Origin: Mesaphorura yosii
Lineage: Eukaryota > Arthropoda > Collembola > Poduromorpha > Tullbergiidae
Length of the DNA stretch: 64,000 nt
Direction: 5' to 3'
Assembly: GCA_009869945.1 (NCBI GenBank)
Contig: WIXG01000264.1
Span: forward strand, 1 to 64,000
Part shown: piece by piece, positions 137-56,239 of the stretch
How positions within the stretch are numbered: position 1 is the first letter of the stretch
How the letters are laid out: each line of letters starts with the position of its first letter
Translations under genes and position numbers: made by a program
The notes under the pieces: model-generated
Seen by the model: the letters and a program-made list of their open reading frames with translations, nothing else
What the model was told of the DNA's origin: nothing
Database searches by the model: none

Positions 137-995
137 TTCATAATTTGCGAAAGTGTGAATAAAAGTCAAGCTGGCTCAAATTATGCGCGGGTCACCGAGC
201 TCCCGATTTGGGTAGTGCGCGGGACGTACTAACTGCGCCATTACGGTATGCCTCGCTCGTAGTCGTAATTATCCTGATGCAGTTTCTTGCTCTCTCTGCT
301 GCTTGCTGTCTGATGTAATTCGATTGGATTGCATAATCGCATTACAGGCATGCAGCGTGATCAAAACACAGGAGTCCAAAAGAAGAAGAATCGCAGCAGA
401 TCGCCAGTCTATCCAGCTTGCTTCGGCTAGAATCGGCATGGAGTCACGTAGGCACGTCATTTAATATTCAACAGATTCTCTCTTTCGTCGGGCTCCAGCT
501 GCGACTCGGGCAATTCAGGCATAAAAGAATAAAAACTCCATTGCTGCATTCGGATTTGCCCTTTTCAAAAATTAACAAATCTCAGGTTCAGGGCTTATAT
601 GAAATGTGATGCTTTATCAAATATTGAAGATTCTTGGTTAGTAAACCATGTCCAGGAAATCGTTGCACAATTTTTTTATGACACAATGCACGAAAAAGTG
701 CAAAGATTTCCCGGACATGCTTTAATTCTATAAATAATGCTTAGACACTGCTGACCGAAAAGCGTGAATAATAGGCAACACGCCTAGAATTTTCGGTTAG
801 ATTCCATGAACACGCACTCTGCATGATGACGGGATGAATATTTTATGAATTAGTTGTTTAATCCAGAGTAGAAAATCGTGCTCGCCGATTTTTCATTTTC
901 CAAAGACCAAAAAGTCTTCACGTAAGAAAGTGCTTCTTTAATTTAGCCAGATAACTCACCCGGCGCGTCGTGGAAAGAACATCGGACAAGGAACA
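137..995. other. Intergenic stretch before the first receptor gene
   Basis: No gene is supported. The stretch holds a poly(A) signal near 162, a GC-rich block at 184-240 in which TGCGCGGG occurs twice, and the inverted repeat listed separately at 647-719. Short open frames here lack conserved features. Confidence 0.5.
647..719. repeat. Inverted repeat able to form a 73-base hairpin
   Basis: The left arm is 647-668 and the right arm 698-719. The reverse complement of the right arm matches the left at 20 of 22 positions. The 29-base loop starts with a T run (671-677) and ends with an A run (693-697), so the stem can extend inward to a small terminal loop. The length and two internal mismatches resemble a microRNA precursor. 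I do not recognise either arm as a known microRNA. A short foldback element is the alternative. Confidence 0.5.
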
Positions 996-2192
996 ATGCT
1001 GAGCAAACGTGCTCTGAAGCGCCTGAAGTTCGCGTATACTCTCATGACTTTCTTCTGCCTGATTCCTTGCGACTGGGATTCCAACAAGCTTCGTTTAGTC
1101 CCAACCAAGTTCAAGGCCAGACTCTTCTTCAACTTCTTAATCAAGTTTGGCCTTCAAGCAATCGTCGTCTACTTTGGCATCGCGCTCGCCATCGACTTGT
1201 ACCTGAACCGGCTTGCTCTCCATTATGCATTCGTGTTGGGAATGTACTTCAGTGGGCTGCTCTTCGCAGTCTCGATTTCAAACGTCGTGAATAATCACAC
1301 GAACGACCTCGTGCACATAGTGAACGGCACGTTTTTCATTGACTCGTACTTTAAGGGGCTTCACCTGCCCCGGGCCGCCGTCGAGGCTGAAGAAGCAGAG
1401 CAGCGTCACATCATCGTCCCCTTCAGCAACTTGATGGAGCCAATAGCGATAATTCACACCGTACTGATCGTGTCCCTGTTCTCCGAGCCGTACGACCCCT
1501 TCCGTCGGTATTTTTATAACGTTGTCGTGTACGTCGTGCCCCAACTCGATTGCACACTCTCCGAAGTGGCCACGGTCATCTTGTACGCTGGTTTTATCCG
1601 TCTTATGTACGGCTTCTTCGTCCTGTACGCCTTCGTCGGAGCTCAATATATAGAGTCCTACAATTTCTGGGCCAGCGTGCTGCTCAAATGTAAATGCGAC
1701 CAAGGCAAAGAAGGGCAAGTGCGGTTTCCAACCGCCGCCGAAAGATCCCTCATGCGTACTTTCATTATGCTTGGGAAGGGCTACAACGAATCGGCGATTA
1801 ACAATACCCTCGTGCCCCAAACTGGCTTCCTTCTGATGGTGCCTCTGACGATCAGCATCTACGCTTCGATCAAGCTGTTTGGGGAGCTCAACTGGAGTAC
1901 TTACTTCCTTTTCCCGACGGGAGCCGGCGGAATCCTCGTCATTGCGCAGCGAGCCTGGACGGAAATCGCCAACGCAAATGTCATCATGGAGGAAGTCCTC
2001 AAGCTGTGGCAGGGAATGGTGACGGCAGACCCATCGCGTAAGATGCGGGAGTTCAAGATGCGACTCAAGTACTTGAATGCAGAATTCTACCGGCCAAAAA
2101 TCGGCGCGTACTGCTGCTTCAACCATGAAACTTTTCTCTTATTTTGTCAGCAGGTTGTCGACCAAAGCATTTCATTGTTGCTGAACTTTTAA
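996..2192 (+). CDS. Gustatory-receptor-like seven-helix chemoreceptor (copy 1, intronless)
   Basis: A single exon of 398 residues. The protein is hydrophobic throughout, with about seven predicted membrane helices, the usual length and layout of arthropod GR proteins (ligand-gated cation channels of taste neurons). The start at 996 is chosen because it aligns with the start of the neighbouring copy: both begin M-x-x-K-x-A-L-x-R-L-K-F and share FCLxPCDW. The two proteins are clearly paralogous along their length (for example SEPYDPFRR and YFLFPTG). Unlike copy 2, this gene has no intron at the PFRR-YFYN junction. A poly(A) signal AATAAA lies at 2421-2426. The ligand cannot be inferred. Confidence 0.8.
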   Translation: MLSKRALKRLKFAYTLMTFFCLIPCDWDSNKLRLVPTKFKARLFFNFLIKFGLQAIVVYFGIALAIDLYLNRLALHYAFVLGMYFSGLLFAVSISNVVNNHTNDLVHIVNGTFFIDSYFKGLHLPRAAVEAEEAEQRHIIVPFSNLMEPIAIIHTVLIVSLFSEPYDPFRRYFYNVVVYVVPQLDCTLSEVATVILYAGFIRLMYGFFVLYAFVGAQYIESYNFWASVLLKCKCDQGKEGQVRFPTAAERSLMRTFIMLGKGYNESAINNTLVPQTGFLLMVPLTISIYASIKLFGELNWSTYFLFPTGAGGILVIAQRAWTEIANANVIMEEVLKLWQGMVTADPSRKMREFKMRLKYLNAEFYRPKIGAYCCFNHETFLLFCQQVVDQSISLLLNF

Positions 2193-2634
2193 TTCCCAGG
2201 CCAGTTTTTCATGCCTTCATCTTAAAACTAGCTGTAACCTTCGAATATTAGGCGAAAGACGACTGAAAATTAAATTGGCAATTGCACAATGAATTGTTTA
2301 TTCACTTTTTGAGTTCCAACTTGCGACTTGCGATCGATATCGCTCGATTAAATATTGAAAAGTGAAATGCAGCAATGAAAAACTCGGCAAACGAATTCAA
2401 GTCATTAGCAATGTGAAACCAATAAATATGTACCTTTTATTTGCAAAGACTGCAACCAGAATTTGTAAGCGACTTATTTTCCACGAAGGTTGAGAAAGAC
2501 GATAAGTTTGCAATTAAAATAGAAACTCCTCTAAAAAGGAAGCACTTAAATTAGAAAATGGCCTATGCGGCAGTTTGCAGGCATGGTCAGTCGAAATTCA
2601 AGCCTGGAGCCAGTCAGACAGTCAAACACTCAAA
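2193..2634. other. Spacer between the tandem receptors
   Basis: This is AT-rich sequence of 442 bases. It holds the likely 3' end of copy 1 (AATAAA at 2421-2426) and the upstream region of copy 2. No TATA box or other clear element is seen. Confidence 0.5.
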
Positions 2635-3904
2635 ATGGTGACGAAGTCCGCATTGACACGCCTGAAATTTGTGTACACACTCATGGCCTTCTTCTGCCTC
2701 GTCCCGTGCGACTGGTACTCGGACAAGCTGCAAATGGTACGTACAAGAAACAAGGTCAAACTTTTCTTCAATTGGCTCATCTCACGGGGCTTGACCGTCA
2801 TCGTCATCTACATCAGCTTCGCATTCGCAATCGACCTGCGCCAAGGCAATTTGGACCTCCATCACGCATTCGTGCTTGGCATGTACCTCAGCGGGTTGTT
2901 CCTCGGAAATGCGATCGCGTCCTTCACCAGACAACATCCGGACGAGTTTATGTTCCTGCTCAACAACATGTTTTTCGTTGACAAGCATTTCCAAAGCCTG
3001 CGGCTGCCCCAGGCGGCCCTGGCCGCACAGCTTCGTGTGTACCGTCATTTCATTGTCCCCTTCAGCAATTTCCTGGAGCCAATCTCGATCGTGCATACGA
3101 TTCTGATTGCTTCACTCTTCTCAGAGCCGTACGATCCTTTTCGGAGGTAGCAGCTTTCCTTGCTGTGCTGATGCGAACAGTTATCGAGTTATCCTTGTTT
3201 CTTCGCACGAGTTTAATTTCTTGTGATTGCGTTTCAGATACTTTTACAATATTCTCGTGTTTTGCGTGCCGGCACTGGACACCCTGGAGTTCAGAATTCT
3301 TGCCGTCCTCGTTTACATGAGTTTTATACGACTCCTGTACGGATTCTTCCTGCTCGTCGCGTTCTGTGGCGCCATGTACGTCGAGGTCGCTCACTTTTGG
3401 GCGAGTGTGCTCCTGAAGTGTGACGACGAAGGTCGTTTTCCATCCGTCGCCGAGAAGCAGATTGTGGTCGCCTTCTTCGTCCTTGGCAAATCCTTCAACG
3501 AAACGAATATAAGCACGGTCCTCCTACCGCAGCTTTTTGTTTTCTTGGGACTGCCTTTCATTTTCGGTGTGTACGTCTCCATTAAACTATTTGGAAGGAT
3601 CAACTGGGGCACGTACTTCTTGTTTCCTACTGGCAGCATTTTAATCTTCCTCTTGACCCAGCGGGTCTGGATCGAAGTGGCGGATATGAACACGATCGGC
3701 TACGAGATAGTGGCCCGGTGGAAAAAGAAGTGCACCGAAGACAGATCGCTGAAGATGCTCGAGTACAAGGCGAACCTCAGGTATTTGGCCGCAGACTTCT
3801 GGCGCCCGTCCATCGGGCAGTACTGCAAATTGGACCGGGAGAGCCTTGCTCTATTTTTTCAACAAGTTCTAGAACTAACGATTTCATTACTGCTAGACTT
3901 CTAG
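2635..3904 (+). CDS. Gustatory-receptor-like seven-helix chemoreceptor (copy 2)
   Basis: Two exons: 2635-3146 and 3238-3904, separated by a 91-base GT-AG intron (phase 2, splitting an Arg codon). The joined protein is about 392 residues and parallels copy 1 from end to end. An in-frame ATG 60 bases upstream (2575) would add 20 residues, but 2635 matches the start of copy 1. The frame hits a stop just inside the intron, and similarity to copy 1 resumes exactly at the acceptor, so the splice is well supported. Seven hydrophobic segments are visible. Its downstream neighbour runs in the opposite direction, so the two 3' ends converge near 3950. Confidence 0.8.
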
Positions 3905-45868: not shown

Positions 45869-47201
45869 TTATGAAAATGTGCCCACTGTCGCCAGCAGTA
45901 CTTGAATGAAGACACTGGTTAGCAGCGCCATGTAGTTAAGCTTGATGTCTTTCTCCACGAAGAACGATGCTGTGACCCGGCACGCCAATGGGCGACAAGC
46001 TAGAACACTACGCTGCAGGTCCTCCATCCCTCCTGGTGCCACTGCCACAGTCGCTGTCGCCGACGAGCCTTGTTTCTGTTTCCAGCTCCCGTTGTAGTGT
46101 CTACGAAATTGCAGTGACTTCTCGCGTACGTCCGCCATGTACTCCATCGTCCCGATGCATTCCCCAAAGCAAAACACGCTCCCGGCTACGAAGAATGTAG
46201 ACACGAACAAGCTGACGGTCTGATGGAATCGAAGTGCAGCGTACAGACAGAATATGCCACCCATTTCAATGGCCGTCTTCAAGATTGGGATCAGCACGGC
46301 TCCGCTCCCGTTGTTGTGCATCGTGTTCAAAATTGTGAGGCTCCTGTAAATATCCAGGGCCACTTTCTGAGGCTGTACTTCGGTTTCGGTTTCGGTCTCA
46401 TGAAGACTCACACGACTCCAAGTTGAACTGTGGTGTGGCAAAATCAAAGTCGAAAAGGGAGATTGAAGATTCCTTCGATTGCTTCGATCTATAAATAAAT
46501 TAATTGCCTTACCAAATTTTGTCTATCCAGAAATTATTAGTCAATATGTACGCGTAGCCGATGTAAAGCACGAAAACGTGCAGCAACACAATTTTCGCCC
46601 AGCCAAAAGCTTCCAGCAACGCCGCCACTGCAAATGTTTGCCATGTTTGCCATTCCTCTGGCAACGCAGCATAGATCGTGAATTTATTGTCTGGAACAAC
46701 GAGGCACAGTCCAGGAATCAGGACTCCGCCAAGGACAAGCGTGTACGCAACCAGACCACAGATGATCTTTTCTCGGATATTTGGTAGGGCAAATTCGACT
46801 CGCTTCTCCGAGTACAGCCTTCCGTAAGCCCTGTTGAAGTGTAGAACCTGATTTCCCAGGACGGCCAACTCGTGTTTCTTGTACCGGGCCCCTAGCTGAA
46901 TGGCCAGCGTAGTGGCGTAGCAGAGGACCATGATCCCGTTGATGAGAACCGCGTGGTGCCACGTCCGAACCTGCTCCACAGTGTACCCGAAGCCAGGAAT
47001 TAACCTTATGATAAGGTAAATCAGTTCGGAGAAATACCAACCAACGCTGAGGACGCCTGCCGCCCTTTGCCAAACAGTTCGTTTTGTGCTCACTCGCTCA
47101 AAGGCGGCTGCATTCTTGTTCCAAGCGAATGGGAATGTTTGAATGCATGAATTTATCGAGAACGAAGCTTCCAGCAATTTGTTCTCCAGTTTTGTCAGCA
47201 T
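45869..47201 (-). CDS. Gustatory-receptor-like chemoreceptor (third, divergent)
   Basis: Exon 1 47201-46513 and exon 2 46427-45869, read leftward, with an 85-base intron and phase-2 join (AAAATTTG|GTAAGG to CCACACCACAG|TTC); 415 residues. ATG 47201 is the first in frame. The membrane-helix pattern (VLINGIMVLCYATTLAIQLG, IICGLVAYTLVLGGVLIPGL, LLHVFVLYIGYAYI, FHQTVSLFVSTFFVAGSVFC) and length fit a GR. It is only distantly related to the tandem pair at 1-4 kb. A Glu/Thr-rich hydrophilic loop (HETETETEVQ) lies just after the intron. A minus-strand poly(A) signal is at 45764-45759. Confidence 0.7.
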
Positions 47202-48521
47202 TTTCGCTGGAAGTGATCGAATGATGCTTTGAACTGAACCCAAAATCAGCGGATAGAAACGAGACGAGTGCCATAATATATTCTTTGGCCGCGGTGTTTA
47301 GCTCAAATGTCTCGGTAATCGATAAGATAATAGATAGGTATTAACATGTAATTAAGGCCAAATGCCAAAGGCATTTGTCTAGCAGTTAGTAACAACAACA
47401 CAGCCTTACCTTATCCACAGCTTCAAATTACCACTATAATAACGATCAAATGATGATCGCTTTTTCTCGCAGACGCGGTCGAGACTACAGACAATAAATA
47501 TAGAAAGTCGAGATTGTGGATTGATAAAGAGAAATTAAATAAATTAATTAAATAGAAATAACAATGATTAAGCATACTTTTGGATCGTAACCCATAATCG
47601 AATTGCTAGCAGATTGCTATTACGTAATGCCAAAATTCGACCAACGGATAGTTTGTTAATTACTATCGTCTTCACATAATCGTCATTAAATATGTCAATA
47701 TCGGAATTCAAAATGTTCACGGCATGGCAATAAAAGGCAAGGCATAGGTAGAAAATTCTGAAATTGACAGGCATGGTCATAATACGTTTAATGAAGCGTT
47801 TTGCTTGAATCCCTGACTGAAACTTCCAATAAGGCCAGACTGACTCGTCTGAATTTCTCTCGGACGCGACTCGAGTCGTTTTACTTTGTTGTTCAGCGCA
47901 AGCCAAGCAGAAAATTATAAACAGAAATGACCTTGAATGACTTGTGTTAAGGTTTTACTTTGAATTTGACAGCTGTGAGTCATACTAAAAGCTATTTGCT
48001 GTCCTGTTTTTGCTGTAAGTCGTCGAGGCACTACTCTACTAAGCTTCTAAACTTACGCTTTATGTGTCTGTGCTGCTAAACGAAAGTTACATAGGAAAAT
48101 TAATTTGGTTCTCATAGTTCTCAAAACGTTCTGTTGTTGTTGCCGGCCTGTATAAAAGCAGCCGATGCTAAATACGATTTTTTTAGTTGCAATTGGTTTG
48201 TTCGTTGGTTGATTCAATTCAGTCATTCAATTCAATTCTCGTATCGCTTCCTGTCAGACTGATAGTGCAGTGACGCAGATACCGTATAGACTGATTCGCA
48301 GCTCTTCACTACAACCTCGCACATTGCATTGCAATATCAATTCGCAAATCGTCATACGTAATTGGGTTTGGCCCTCTATTGGCACACCTTAATTTCAGTT
48401 CCACATATTTAAATCGGTAAGTTTTAATTATTTCGATTAATTTCTACCTCGTTCTTGATTTGCACTGATCACGCTGGTTTCATTTGTGTACAGATTCACT
48501 GATTAGCTATTAACGATCAGC
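47202..48521. other. Divergent upstream region, third GR and rvt gene
   Basis: Contains the rvt TATA box (48153-48160) and a 77-base 5'-UTR intron (48417-48493: ATCG|GTAAG to TGTACAG|ATT). The rest is AT-rich, without a supported gene. Confidence 0.5.
48153..48160 (+). promoter_or_regulatory. TATA box of the rvt gene
   Basis: TATAAAAG sits about 30 bases before an initiator-like TTAGTT (48183-48188), 256 bases before the 5'-UTR intron and 362 bases before the start codon. This points to an ordinary polymerase II promoter with its own leader exon. Confidence 0.55.
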
Positions 48522-51377
48522 ATGCCGTCGTCCGCTTTTGGCACTTCTTCCCTCTTCAACAACATCCTGCTCCAGGTCACCAATGAAAAGCTGAATGAGC
48601 TCAAGACCCAGCAAAATCTGGTGTCGGCCCACTTTCAACCGGTGCTCGACTCAGTCAAATTCAAAGACGCACAACCTCATGCGCCGAAGCCGAAGGCTGC
48701 CCTCGTACATCTATATGAAGCTGTACGTGACTCGCCGATCAAGAACCTAATTCGAGAGGAGTCCACGCTTCTCGACACGCTCCGTTACTTCATCGCCGGT
48801 ATGGAACGAGATCCTTCGATCAGCGAGCAAATCGTGTGTGTTTGGGTCGAAAAATTAAAGGAGGAGATCGAGTTTGCCATTCGTAAGTGCGAATACTCGT
48901 ACTTGTACGGGAGTCTGCTTTCGGAATGGTTGGACATGGAAAATAAGCAGGCCCAGCAAGGGCAAAGCCCGGCAACAGAATCGACAGCAGCGCCGACGCC
49001 GACACCTGCAGTGGGTCCAACGAAAGAGAAGGCACTCGAAGACCTGCAGGCACTCATGTTTACTGCGCCCGCGACTCCATTCGACAAGGAACAATTCCTG
49101 GCCTACCTGAGGGACCAAGTCTTCAACGTCATAGATAACGCCGCACATCAGCAGCTGCTGGAATCCATTAGGCACGAAATTAAGCACAATTTCGATGTGT
49201 CCCAACATCACGTTCAAGCGCATGAACTCCGATCTTGCATCGACGGTCTCTGCTCGGAAGATTACGTGGCCCAAGACAAGAAAACTGCGTTACGACAGCT
49301 TCAAGACAATTCCGAGGTGCTCTCCGAAGTCGCGACGCTCCTGACAAACAAAATCCGCCACCTTCACCTTTGGGACTGGTCTGCACCCAATGTGAACGTG
49401 AATCTGGAGCTGAGTCGAGGGCTGGCCGGGTACTGGCGTGGTGCCTTGAGCGAAGACGTCATCACGATGCTGCTACTGCGGTACATTGGCGTCCAATGGG
49501 GCGCCACATTCAAGAGCGCTTTCCTCCGCCTGTACGACCAAATGTGGAAGAGACCCGGAGCACCGTCGGACGGGGTGGGCGTCTACCGCCCGCACTACAT
49601 GTCCATCAACAGCTTTCGTGAGACAAACTTCCGTTCCAGTCTTCTGTCGGAGCTGCCCGACTCAATGCATTCGCAGTTGGCGAAGAACCCGAACGAGTAC
49701 GTGCAAGTTGCTTCCGACTCGAGTGCACTTGACATGATCCTGGAGTACGAAGATGAAGGAAATTGTGGCAGCCTGGCTAGCAATGGCATACCGCAGGGGA
49801 TGGTAAGGGAGAACCAACAATTTAGCTGCGTGTTCGGAGCTCCTGCTCCACAATTTGCTGCAAAAATGAGTAAAAGAGCCGCGCCAGTCGTACCACAACC
49901 TCAGACGCCTCAGATCGACATGCGCCAATCGTTCCTCCACGTCCTGTCCACAGAAATCAAGCTGAGCCACGCCATTCGCCCCTCCTCGCCCTTCGTCGTG
50001 GTACAGTCCAACTACGAGCAGTTCGCTGCCTCTTTGCGTCACGAACCTCTGCTGGCCATTCTGGAGTTTTTCCACATGCCGCGCATTTGGCTCGACTTCT
50101 TCGCCAAGTTTCTGCGCACTCCTTTCGAGAGCCGCGTCCGTGTTCGTGGAATCCCCGACTCGCATGTGCTCGGCGCGTTCTTTGGGGAGCTGGCCCTCTT
50201 CGTCCTTGATTTCCACATCAATAGAGGGACCAGCATCAATTTGTACCGGGTTCTCGACCAATTCTGGCTTTGGGGCAACGACCTTGAGAAAGTGACTGCG
50301 GCGTGGCGCATTGTGGAGGAATTTGGCGCTACCCTTGGACTTCGGGTGGATGCGAAGAAAAGCGGATCAATCATCACGTACGGCGAAATCAAATTGACAG
50401 AATTCTGCACGGCAAAGGGGCTCGCGGCCGATGGACAAGCACGCTTGCGAATCGCACCGCCTGCACCGTTGCCGTCCGGCTCCGTTCGGTGGGCCTACTT
50501 GGAGCTGGCTACAAATGGCCGGTTTACAATCGACCAGCAGGCGCTCACGTCGTTCACTGAAGAAATGAAGGGGCTTCTGGACAAGGCGGGCTGCACTCTG
50601 CAATTCATCAACGTCTACAACAAATACATGGAGTTCTTCGTGAGGAATTTCGGCCGCAATGCGCTCGTGTTTGGAGACCAGCACGTGGAGCAGATTGTCG
50701 ACGCCCTGCGACAGATCCACGAGCAGCTTTTCGGGGCACCGGGGAACGTCGTGCAGGGACTCAAGTCCAAGACGAAATTCGGGCAGCTCCTGACGGGCGG
50801 TGCAGAGATCGTGGACGTTTGGGTTTACTGGCCACTCGAACGCGGGGGTCTTGGACTCGTGAATCCTTTCTTGGAGATCATGGCGCTGCACGCGACGTAC
50901 AAGAAGACTTATCCGGACACCGGTGCCCGTGACCGTGAGCTCGAATTCACGCCGCTGCTGCTGCAGGACAAAAACAACTACGACGCGCACATCAAGGCGA
51001 TTGAGGAACGCAACAAACGGCGGGCAGACAACTTTGGCGATGCTAGAGGGCTGGAGAAAGTGCCCACGTTCGACGAGTACTGCGAGGATCGTGAGTCGGG
51101 GGCGGGATTCGGGCACTGGTTCTCTCGCTACGTGAAGCTGCTTGAGCGTCCGTCGTGCCTCGACCCGCCGACCATCGCCAACGGAGGCTCAGCAGCTGAT
51201 GCGTTTTACGCCGTGGCGCTGCACGACAACCAGACCGCCAACAAGCACATGCAGTGGGTGTACTCGTACTACGAGCCCCAACTCCTTCGCCATTTTGGAA
51301 GTATCCAGTTCATCAACACGGAGCTGCTCCCAATGAGCATGATTGGCAACATTCGCAAGAGTAAAGTCAAACACTAA
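48522..51377 (+). CDS. rvt: Reverse-transcriptase-related cellular gene (rvt family)
   Basis: 951 residues in one coding exon, preceded by a 5'-UTR intron. The N-terminal part has helical, coiled-coil-prone sequence (LKEEIEFAIRKCEYSYLYGS) and a Pro/Thr-rich linker near 150-165. The core resembles the RT palm: IWLDFFAKFL (residues 522-531), the template-grip motif VRGIPDSHVLGAFFGE (about 541-556), and LYRVLDQFWLWG (574-585) at the place of the YxDD box. Asp579 is kept while the second acidic residue is Gln580. Downstream come VRWAYLEL, NVYNKYMEFFVRNFG and VYWPLERGGLGLVNPFLEI. This layout fits the rvt genes described from fungi and scattered eukaryotes: single-copy, host-encoded RT relatives that are not retrotransposons. 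The family assignment is from memory of motifs. No endonuclease, RNase H or gag-like region is visible. A poly(A) signal is at 51507-51512. Confidence 0.6.
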   Translation: MPSSAFGTSSLFNNILLQVTNEKLNELKTQQNLVSAHFQPVLDSVKFKDAQPHAPKPKAALVHLYEAVRDSPIKNLIREESTLLDTLRYFIAGMERDPSISEQIVCVWVEKLKEEIEFAIRKCEYSYLYGSLLSEWLDMENKQAQQGQSPATESTAAPTPTPAVGPTKEKALEDLQALMFTAPATPFDKEQFLAYLRDQVFNVIDNAAHQQLLESIRHEIKHNFDVSQHHVQAHELRSCIDGLCSEDYVAQDKKTALRQLQDNSEVLSEVATLLTNKIRHLHLWDWSAPNVNVNLELSRGLAGYWRGALSEDVITMLLLRYIGVQWGATFKSAFLRLYDQMWKRPGAPSDGVGVYRPHYMSINSFRETNFRSSLLSELPDSMHSQLAKNPNEYVQVASDSSALDMILEYEDEGNCGSLASNGIPQGMVRENQQFSCVFGAPAPQFAAKMSKRAAPVVPQPQTPQIDMRQSFLHVLSTEIKLSHAIRPSSPFVVVQSNYEQFAASLRHEPLLAILEFFHMPRIWLDFFAKFLRTPFESRVRVRGIPDSHVLGAFFGELALFVLDFHINRGTSINLYRVLDQFWLWGNDLEKVTAAWRIVEEFGATLGLRVDAKKSGSIITYGEIKLTEFCTAKGLAADGQARLRIAPPAPLPSGSVRWAYLELATNGRFTIDQQALTSFTEEMKGLLDKAGCTLQFINVYNKYMEFFVRNFGRNALVFGDQHVEQIVDALRQIHEQLFGAPGNVVQGLKSKTKFGQLLTGGAEIVDVWVYWPLERGGLGLVNPFLEIMALHATYKKTYPDTGARDRELEFTPLLLQDKNNYDAHIKAIEERNKRRADNFGDARGLEKVPTFDEYCEDRESGAGFGHWFSRYVKLLERPSCLDPPTIANGGSAADAFYAVALHDNQTANKHMQWVYSYYEPQLLRHFGSIQFINTELLPMSMIGNIRKSKVKH

Positions 51378-51901
51378 ATTGCGAATTTCCGGCTTCATCG
51401 TCAAATGAAAGTATTGGCAAATAATCATTGTGGCTTTAACTTAATTTTAACTGTGATTAACGAATTGTGGCATTGTCTTAAATTTTGTTGACTAATGACT
51501 AACTTGAATAAACTTCAATTTATTGAATCCATCGCCAGTTCTTTTCTTACTGTCAATTCTGTTGAGATCGATCCTTGCAGAGCAGTGCTTGAAACTCGAG
51601 TCGAGTTGAGTTGCTGAGACCGGCAAAAGCTGTAAACTTCAACTTTAATAGAGGTCATATTTCTTGGATACTCGTACTCGTGTAGTAGTTGTATTATCTG
51701 GTCGCATTACATAACTTACATCATAAATCGATAAGCTAAAGACCGTACCCACAAAAAGAGCTGATCTGAAGTCCAAATCAAACGTGAGTGAACTAATCTA
51801 GTTGTCCAGTAAAGTGCAAACCAGCAAAGTGCCAGTAAAAGTTTACCGATTTGTGTTTATTCAGCGCTTCTAATTTGTAGTTTTCCTAATTGAATCCGAA
51901 C
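51378..51901. other. Spacer between rvt and GST genes
   Basis: Contains the rvt poly(A) signal (51507-51512) and the GST upstream region. No TATA box is evident. Confidence 0.5.
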
Positions 51902-52763: not shown

Positions 52764-54058
52764 TCTTCGCATCCGCCTTACTTCGGGCAGATTCCAATTT
52801 CCGGCCTGCTGCGCCGCTGGCATCTTTATCGATTCATTAAATAATGGATAATGGAGGTCAGAGTTCAGAGTTTTGTGAGTTATGTATTTTTCTAGTTATC
52901 GAGAAATGCTTCGATTTAGGGTGCTTTCAAACAACAGCAACTGCTGAATAAATCATTTCATGAAGAGATTCATCAGTTGATCTTCGTTCTTGTTTACCAC
53001 CAGTTTCCATTCACTTCGATCATCTGTTCACCGAATCTTCAAGTAGACAAATACGAAAAACAAAATGCAGCATACCGTCTTAGGATAAACGATAAAGAAC
53101 ATCAATTAGCGCATCGTCTTGCTCCTGCCCCATGGTCTATGGTCAAGTCATCAACAGCCTTGTGCCTGTGCCTTGTGTTGCACGTGCACGAGACAATCAA
53201 GAGGATAAAAGAGCCGTGAGCGAAGCCAGGAGCTTGTTGACCTTACCAACGAGTAAAGTAAATGTCTAAATGTAAAAGTACGAGTACGGCGATGCTGTAC
53301 GGTCTTGTGCTCCTTGAGCGAGCAGTGTAAAATCTCGTTCACCTTCAACTTACTTCACTTGACGTAGTGAGCACAATTAGCGTAAGCGGTAAGCCGAAGC
53401 CGAAGCCCAGCCAAGCTTTAAAGTGGTTTTGGACGGGACGGACGAAAGATTCGATTCACGACTCACCTTCAACACCGGTTTTCCGTGCACCTTCTCAGTT
53501 CTCAACTGCTGCAACCAGAAAAGGCTTCGTGTGTCACTACAATTCGCCTGAATCAAGGATTTTGTAAGCTTTTCGCCGTAAATTCGACAATTAGCGAGTG
53601 CCATTGCGAGTGATTTTCTAGTGATTAGTGTTAATTTAGTCATTAACTTGAGCAGCGCAAGAGTACTTGTGTTCTTAATAGAAGCTAATTAGAGTAGATT
53701 CAGTGAATTGCTTTTGCGTAAACAGAAGAACCGTGTGTAGAGATCGAAGGCCAGTAAATCTCAGCGGCCTTTCCTTGCAGTTGCAAATAAACATAATGCC
53801 AAATTAGTAAAGTAAAGTAAATTTGACTGAGGCTGAGGTGATGACATTGAGTCGCGTGAGAATGAGCACGATCACAAGACGCGGATAAGCAAATACGTTG
53901 CAATACGTTATCTAAATAGCAAACGAATCAGGCGAGACAGGCGTGTGAATGGCGAGTGAGTCAAGAATCCTCGTCACAGTCTTTCCGCTGGCGTGATGCC
54001 GTGAAGTAAAATACTAAAGTAACGCGAAGTGCAATGAAGTGAGGCTTTGAATTGTGAA
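52764..54058. other. Intergenic stretch upstream of the WSD-type acyltransferase
   Basis: About 1.3 kb. The GST poly(A) signal (near 52946) lies at the left. Short open frames carry no domain features. No TATA box was found close to 54059. Confidence 0.5.
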
Positions 54059-56239
54059 ATGGCAATGGAGTCTCCCGATTCGCCATCACCGTCGCCGTCC
54101 AAGCCTGACGGCGCGGGTGCGGAGTTTTTGACGACCCGCATGCAGTATTTCGAGCAGGAGCTCATCCAATCCATCACCGACCTCGTCAAGAACGTCAGCG
54201 AGTACTTCCAGCTCGCGAAGGCGAACGGGGCCTCAACGAGCAGTTACAGTCACAATGCTAGCGCCAGCGCCAATGCCAGTGGCGGCAGTGTTCTCCGCTT
54301 CATTCCTAATTCGTATTTCATCTGGCCCGCAGCAAATGGCACGAGTATGAGTGAACAGGAAACGACGCCAGCGCCAGCCTCAGCTGACGTCAGCCCCGGT
54401 TTTGGTTTTGGTCGTCTTGACTCGCTGCTCAGGACGTATCTCTCGTGGGACGACGTCTTCGCTCAACTTCTGCTCCTTCTCAGCCTCGCATTCGTACTCT
54501 GGCTCGTGAATCGCCGATTCCTTCGCTGGACGGCACTTGCGACAGTCACCGAAGTCCTGCTCAGCTGGGCCGTGACCCTCGTCGTCTCTCCACTCGCCCT
54601 TCTCGTGTTGGGGCCCATCCTCATCGCACGCGCATGCATCAGCACCTACCTGCGCCTGTCCGCGAGCGCGTCTCGCGTCTTCCTGGCCAACCCATTCGAG
54701 TCAGTCTGGAGCTTCGAGGCCCCGAACTCGCCTTCTTCCTGCGTCTCTCTCCTGCTCATCGAGGGCGAGTGCGACATGCAACAGATTCGCTCCGTCGTTC
54801 TCCGTCGTCTCGTACTGCGTCAAGTCGACGGCGTGTACGTGAACGACTGCTTTCGTCGGAGACTCCGCACTATCGCGGGATTCGTCGCTTGGGAGCGCGT
54901 GGAGCACTTTGACATCACGAATCACGTGCGGACTGCCGCCGAGCCCGACCGCGTGTGGACAGAGGACGGTGTCTTTCAGGAGCTCGCCGCTCTACATGAA
55001 GCGAGCCTCTGCGACCTGCACACTCAGCTCGGGCTGCCGGAGCGAATCCCGCCGTGGGAATTTCTGGTCTTCCCCAAAATTGTGCAAGGCGACCGGCAAT
55101 GCTACGGCCTGGCTACTCGCGTCCACCACTCAATGATGGACGGAATCTCGATGGGGAACCTCCTCCGGGACTGCCTCGCCGATCGCCCCTTCAAGTTTTC
55201 CGTCGACCCCTGCGCTGCTCCTCTCCGCGTCCCTTTCCTCAAACTCTGCGTGGGCCACGTCCTCTCCATCGTCGCACTGCCACGAATCACGTTCGGAAAC
55301 CTGTTCTTCTTCGAGAAGAACGCCTTCCATGGGCGCACGTTGACTGGCCCGAAACACTACGCGTGGTCGAGGCCGCTGCGGATGGAGACCCTCAAGCAGC
55401 TGAAGAATATCACGCACACATCCGTGTTTGCTGTGCTCCTGGCGTGCATCGGCGGCTCCCTGCAGAGACTGTACACGAAGAGGGTGCCCGGCAAAGTGCC
55501 AAAACTCATGCATGCGTGTCCTCCAGTTGGTAAATGAAACCACCAGTCGCAGGTGTATAAATGGAGACTTTAACTGACAAGCTCGTGACTTTTTCGTTTT
55601 CAGCTATACTTCCTTATCCTGATCGCTACCCACGTAACCGTTTCTCGATCGTCCTCTACCCCGTCCTGCTGGGAGGTGCCAAGACGGCGCTGCACCGCCT
55701 GACGCAAGTCTTCGCCGATTCCAAGTCGCTTGCCACGTCACCGGACGTTCTCAGCAACTACTACATCGTGTACATGCTCGGTCTGCTCCCGGCCCCGCTC
55801 CTGAACGTGCTGGCGCCGCTCGCGCACGCGACATTCACCTTCAGTAAGTTTCTGCTGCTGTTGTTGCTGTTTACCAAGCGCCGAATTTAATAATTCAAAT
55901 CGTGGATTCATTTGAATTCGTATAAATCTTTCGTCTTTTAGTAAAACAAGTGTGTAATAACTTGCAGGCAACATTCCAGGCCCCGCCGAGCCCGTCGAAG
56001 TCTTTGGCGGTCATCGCCTGCTAGACATTGGCGCCTGGCTCCCGATCAAGAACCGTATTGGCATCGGCACGGCGCTGTTCAGCTACCAAGACCGGTTGCG
56101 TGTTTCCTTCATCGCGGACAAGGCGGCACTCGCCAATGCTGACGACGTGGCGCTCCTGCGCGACGGTTTCGAGGACGAAATGAGCGACCTGACTCTGAGC
56201 TTGCAGCTTAAATGTGATAAACTGTTCATGGATGAGTGA
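54059..56239 (+). CDS. Wax ester synthase/diacylglycerol acyltransferase-like enzyme (WSD family)
   Basis: Exons 54059-55529, 55604-55843, 55968-56239; introns 74 and 124 bases; 660 residues. ATG 54059 is the first in frame. The N-terminal 110 residues are Ser/Ala-rich. Two membrane segments follow (DVFAQLLLLLSLAFVLWLVN and LLSWAVTLVVSPLALLVLGP). The acyltransferase domain carries the catalytic HHxxxDG motif as VHHSMMDGIS (His356, His357, Asp361, Gly362). Its C-terminal lobe has SNIPGPAEPVEVFGG and a beta-rich IGIGTALFSYQDRLRVSFIA segment, both standard for WSD proteins. Known role: making wax esters or triacylglycerol at the ER. Cuticle lipid is a plausible use in a small arthropod. The long N-terminus is unusual. 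Confidence 0.85.

Follow-up and report, generated by a model that had tools for sequence, protein, structure and literature searches.

The 951-residue protein P0001, encoded in the window (the whole 64,000-nucleotide stretch of contig WIXG01000264.1 of the collembolan Mesaphorura yosii analyzed here), is probably an arthropod member of the RVT class of reverse transcriptases (RTs), UG37 in bacteria, that has turned into a pseudo-polymerase, most simply before the gene was duplicated. The base for this reading is one species with three copies of the gene, of which P0001 alone is intact. The genome comprises 93.0 Mb in 1127 contigs and yielded 66 Chitin_bind_4 matches, which point to an arthropod host.

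Coding frame and surroundings of P0001

A first-pass annotation had placed a 951-residue protein at positions 48522-51377, and an open reading frame check confirmed that this frame is open over 951 codons (956 when counted from the previous stop). At the local base composition, about 4e-16 frames of this length would be expected by chance in the window. The TATA box, 5'-UTR intron, single coding exon, and polyadenylation signal described previously were likewise located, as sequence consensus matches. The features of the gene are as follows.

48151 to 48158, forward strand: TATA-box-like TATAAAAG (consensus match only)
48417 to 48493, forward strand: putative 5'-UTR intron, GTAAGT...TACAG (GT-AG consensus)
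48522 to 51377, forward strand: RVT/UG37-like coding sequence of P0001, 951 aa, single exon (open reading frame, profile and family alignments)
50010 to 50012, forward strand: motif A position, Asn497 (alignment; Asp in 12/12 bacterial homologues, Ser in both paralogues)
50145 to 50189, forward strand: family motif B, RGIPDSHVLGAFFGE (15-row alignment)
50256 to 50261, forward strand: motif C, Asp579 kept and followed by Gln580 (alignment; second position Asp in 12/12 bacterial homologues)
51507 to 51512, forward strand: AATAAA polyadenylation signal (consensus)

The two stretches that had been noted as resembling RT palm motifs, RGIP...GE and LYRVLDQFWLWG, were borne out as family motif B and as motif C of P0001, respectively. 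Bacterial relatives carry G[IVL]P in the same place as the former, with GE in most rows.

Ten frames in the neighborhood were scanned against Pfam, and five were matched: IFT81, otopetrin, GST, a WS/DGAT acyltransferase, and, slightly under its cut-off, a 7tm_7 chemoreceptor. The acyltransferase gene, of the wax ester synthase/DGAT type, lies near the RVT gene at window positions 54047-55537, and the 7tm_7-like chemoreceptor lies at 46512-47297. Two further frames, at 942-2189 and 2518-3901 (region 942-3901), encode multi-pass proteins that are alike by eye and gave no Pfam match (0/2 frames). Together with the frame at 46512-47297, these are possibly gustatory receptors.

Membership in the UG37/RVT class

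RT_UG37, from PADLOC, was the best profile for P0001 (E 1.8e-66, in four stretches), and it was matched by all three arthropod members of the family. P0001 scored 222.7 bits against RT_UG37 versus 18.9 bits against the next PADLOC profile, Drt9 (E 1.3e-4), and one paralogue also gave weak matches to RT_UG4, PDC-M38A, or RT_UG21 (best 1.4e-5). In the genome search, the UG37 stretches in P0001 were collinear, covering profile positions 9-155, 145-273, 361-522, 498-667, and 731-770 of 778. BLASTP of P0001 against the bacterial protein L087 gave E 4e-45 over 796 columns, and alignment of three arthropod with 12 bacterial rows by hhalign gave a probability of 100% and E 9.3e-48 over 766 columns, each of these E values being for one comparison. 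A HMMER profile built from the bacteria alone recovered P0001 with E 2.4e-75 in three collinear domains, with three sequences searched. Identity between P0001 and the bacterial UG37 rows is 19-24%. A search of PHROGs gave no match.

Herpetosiphon, which has an rvt gene, presumably belongs to the same phylum as the bacterial UG37 hosts. Because of this host phylum, and because a non-mobile, full-length RT class with bacterial and eukaryotic members fits the description of RVT, we infer that UG37 is the bacterial rvt. According to PMC5718144, RVT is the sole RT group with both bacterial and eukaryotic members, and its genes form a long branch and carry a large "loop 2a." This description and the UG37 homology in bacteria support the proposal of the first-pass annotation that P0001 is a cellular gene of rvt type carried by an arthropod, provided that UG37 is indeed the bacterial rvt. 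Between the conserved W305-R306 and motif A lie approximately 190 residues in P0001 and approximately 158 in the bacterial protein L079. This long segment ahead of motif A could correspond to loop 2a as described in PMC5718144. Among the matches listed in literature searches, no title pointed to an arthropod rvt when rvt was combined with arthropods, and nothing relevant was listed for UG37 or for DRT9 in eukaryotes.

Bacterial homologues

At a threshold of 1e-12, the UG37 profile matched 16 of 400 genomes in Chloroflexota, the phylum of the seed genome, a Caldilineaceae MAG (G001). Twelve full-length bacterial proteins (L079-L090) were used for alignment, six of which are mutually 82-96% identical. 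Four matching genomes were left out before alignment, as L091 is partial, L092/L095 and L093/L096 are fragments, and L094 covers profile positions 387-529 only. Elsewhere, mixed genomes gave 0/11 at 1e-10, the phylum of a Calothrix gave 0/386 at 1e-20, and the phylum of a Spirosoma MAG gave 3/395 at 1e-12, all weak matches to the core only. Fourteen control genomes gave no match at strict limits and 3/14 at E <= 1; weak UG37 matches are therefore regarded as non-specific.

Scans of viral contigs (no pattern match, then 0/23, 0/101, and 0/11 in succession) and of phages confirmed no relative, and none was confirmed in plasmids, where each scan gave one weak match to a generic RT (E 0.07 and E 4e-3). 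The first pattern scan of genome contigs confirmed 0 of 104 pattern matches. A DNA scan for codons of the [HN]DDFW[FIL]W type returned 66 loci, and the A1 profile matched none of their six-frame stretches at E <= 1.

Nine frames neighboring bacterial UG37 genes were scanned, and no partner gene was seen twice among them. The upstream neighbor in L087 (4005-5417) encodes a TIR domain and a beta-helix; the other frames matched HisG, an APH-type kinase, an LRR protein, dehydrogenases, a weak laminin-G, or nothing.

Loss of catalytic residues

In the 15-row alignment, all 12 bacterial rows have the Asp of motif A and the two of motif C, whereas the arthropod rows (P0001, L002, and L003, in that order) read N/S/S, D/D/D, and Q/Q/Q at these columns. 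With the profile built from bacteria alone, P0001 and L002 were aligned in this same register at high posterior. Where the bacteria have Lys in motif A, all three arthropod copies have Gln; at the Lys of motif D they read K/K/R. Neither L002 nor L003 has an acidic residue between V492 and L505; in P0001 the acid nearest the lost motif A Asp is E499, which is Lys in both paralogues. Of the three Asp that an active polymerase of this class requires, P0001 keeps D579 alone. As the codons confirm (D579 at 50256-50258 and Q580 at 50259-50261), it had been noted correctly that motif C retains its first Asp and has Gln second, and Asn497 in motif A had been overlooked, as had the two further loci.

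P0001 keeps 56 of the 120 columns that are invariant in bacteria and 15 of the 30 in the core (455-640), so that a change at any one invariant column is not rare. All three copies share the motif C Gln. A single ancestral loss at motif A would be the choice by parsimony only, the residue differing (N versus S) between copies.

In two-metal polymerase chemistry, the loss of two metal ligands predicts no nucleotide addition. The previous suggestion that the Gln change could alter metal use is accordingly revised: since the motif A Asp is also gone, loss of polymerase activity is the better inference. An AlphaFold model made on the single sequence had a pLDDT of 35, too low for use.

An RVT that stays active by unusual metal use, in which D579 with the help of amide or hydroxyl side chains, or of another acid, would sustain slow terminal transfer or NTP addition, seems unlikely. 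It would accord with the retained family motif B and the K/K/R at motif D, and with the terminal transferase activity in vitro that PMC3520738 reports for Neurospora crassa RVT. Asn, Ser, or Gln could, moreover, still bind metal weakly together with D579, a consideration that runs against the pseudo-polymerase reading. However, the motif A Asp, the second motif C Asp, and the motif A Lys have been replaced in every one of the three copies, and the nearest candidate acid, E499, is not shared by either paralogue.

Paralogues and selection

The genome search found three loci of the family in 93 Mb, counts that are lower bounds. With at least three loci, the family is not single-copy. The two additional loci, L002 on contig C540 and L003 on contig C1093, are approximately 61% identical to P0001 and 80% identical overall to each other. 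An in-frame TAG lies at 1888-1890 of L002, and L003 is interrupted by a contig end, leaving the window copy as the only one of three that is intact and complete in the assembly. Within the flanks examined, similarity among the copies is limited to coding sequence: the L002/L003 alignment stops at the stop codons, and the 873 bases immediately downstream of P0001 occur once in the genome. In the region 1387-1890, which ends in the TAG, L002 also begins with a hydrophobic stretch resembling a signal peptide, which P0001 does not have. The founding rvt paper, by Gladyshev and Arkhipova in 2011, is said to have found the class in single copy; this trait, a reported property and not a criterion of homology, does not hold for the three loci seen here.

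As far as about codon 450, L002 (2356-2800) and L003 (3411-2960) are near-identical, with a dS of 0.08, whereas beyond that point dS is 0.70; the pattern reflects either gene conversion or an artifact of assembly close to the end of contig C1093. Omega between the two was 0.232 (0.18-0.30) over 613 codons and 0.209 (95% 0.15-0.27) over the 478 codons after codon 450. Pairwise omega averages over branches, so some of this constraint may be older than the inactivation. For the 135 codons before codon 450, omega was 0.41; its bootstrap range, 0.16-1.33, is uninformative and does not separate it from 1. For P0001 against L002 and L003, pN/pS was 0.36 and 0.34 overall (613 codons) and 0.33 and 0.31 after codon 450, with pS at 0.74-0.76, near saturation. 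Amino acid changes after codon 450 are balanced, with 31 unique to L002 and 34 to L003 (p = 0.80), and the TAG-bearing L002 is therefore not evidently more relaxed. The omega of L002 against L003 indicates purifying selection after codon 450.

We consider it distinctly improbable that these genes are pseudogenes, a family in decay since it was acquired or since it lost its function. Such decay would explain the TAG in one of three copies, the lost catalytic residues, and the omega before codon 450. Set against this are the 951 open codons of P0001, which is approximately 61% identical to its paralogues and near saturation in pS against them, the pN/pS of 0.34-0.36 over 613 codons, the L002-L003 omega of 0.21 after codon 450, and the motif C Gln common to every copy.

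Retroelement and telomerase candidates

Pfam searches of P0001 found no endonuclease, gag, or RNase H domain, and blastn at E <= 0.01 showed no repeat in the 12 kb surrounding the gene, in keeping with the earlier statement that retrotransposon machinery is lacking. RVT_1 fell under the cut-off (E 0.016), and on these grounds together a LINE or LTR retrotransposon was rejected as a candidate. An RVT_1 search of the genome listed 19 places, 16 of them over the cut-off, and the P0001 locus was not among them. Telomerase was rejected because the Telomerase RNA-binding domain is absent among the three Pfam matches of P0001 at E <= 10. A Telomerase_RBD match (E 6.4e-14) was observed instead at G000:C94:194667-194990 (L102), in an 868-aa open frame, and the genome probably encodes its own TERT at this C94 locus.

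A domesticated or degenerate retrotransposon RT (LINE, LTR, or PLE) or a diverged telomerase is therefore highly improbable: the sub-threshold RVT_1 match and a group_II_RT_mat match at 0.039 are outweighed by the bit-score difference between RT_UG37 and the next PADLOC profile, the missing domains and repeats, the absence of P0001 from the listed RVT_1 places, and the telomerase RNA-binding domain on C94. Neither outcome that had been named in advance as contradicting a host gene, a best match to a retrotransposon RT or many dispersed copies, was seen, as UG37 was best and three loci were found. The full-length UG37 match, the three loci, and the similarity confined to coding sequence all favor a host-type RT-related gene.

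Comparison with known systems and a proposed role

P0001 shares with the bacterial UG37 RTs (L079-L090) full-length collinear homology, the N-terminal block, motif B (G[IVL]P...GE), motif D, and the C-terminal block. It differs from them in its N/S...DQ, shared across the arthropod copies, where the bacteria have D...DD in 12/12, and in extra segments near aa 203-229, 340-363, 622-645, and 819-865. Among solved structures, the arthropod profile matched only 9ioa and entries of the same sequence at E <= 1 (E 5.3e-8, approximately 100 palm residues). We take the 9ioa chain to be the defense RT DRT9, in line with the Drt9 profile match; the likeness is confined to the palm, and the chain retains DD at motif C. 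With RVT genes, including that of N. crassa, P0001 has in common that it is a non-mobile host gene in a class with bacterial and eukaryotic members. The N. crassa protein is reported in PMC3520738 to be active in vitro, whereas the arthropod copies have lost two catalytic Asp and occupy at least three loci.

In the pseudo-polymerase reading, an RVT/UG37 gene would have lost two of its three metal-holding carboxylates, in motif A and at the second position of motif C, most simply before duplication. Retained as hallmarks of the class are the N-terminal block, motif B, the first Asp of motif C, the Lys/Arg of motif D, and the C-terminal blocks. The protein would no longer polymerize nucleotides and may instead bind or scaffold RNA or a protein multimer, as Prp8 does in the spliceosome. 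Since two of three metal-binding acids are lost and signs of selection are nevertheless present, the arthropod copies probably have a non-enzymatic job.

Prp8 has a scaffolding role in the spliceosome. Its RT-like core, according to PMC4958936, is an inactivated RT central to that machine, so that an RT without activity has been kept in cellular machinery before, giving the pseudo-polymerase reading a precedent. The analogy is one of fate only, and no sequence relation is claimed. We lean, with reserve, toward an independent Prp8-like conversion of a eukaryotic RVT lineage, which would have given rise in arthropods to a family of non-catalytic RNA or multimer scaffolds that multiplied under selection.

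We know of no established function for RVT genes. If the polymerase residues are gone and the protein is yet constrained, part of the job of RVT would need no catalysis, which would provide a testable handle on that job. With P0001, moreover, this class, whose patchy distribution extends over bacteria and eukaryotes, gains an animal member.
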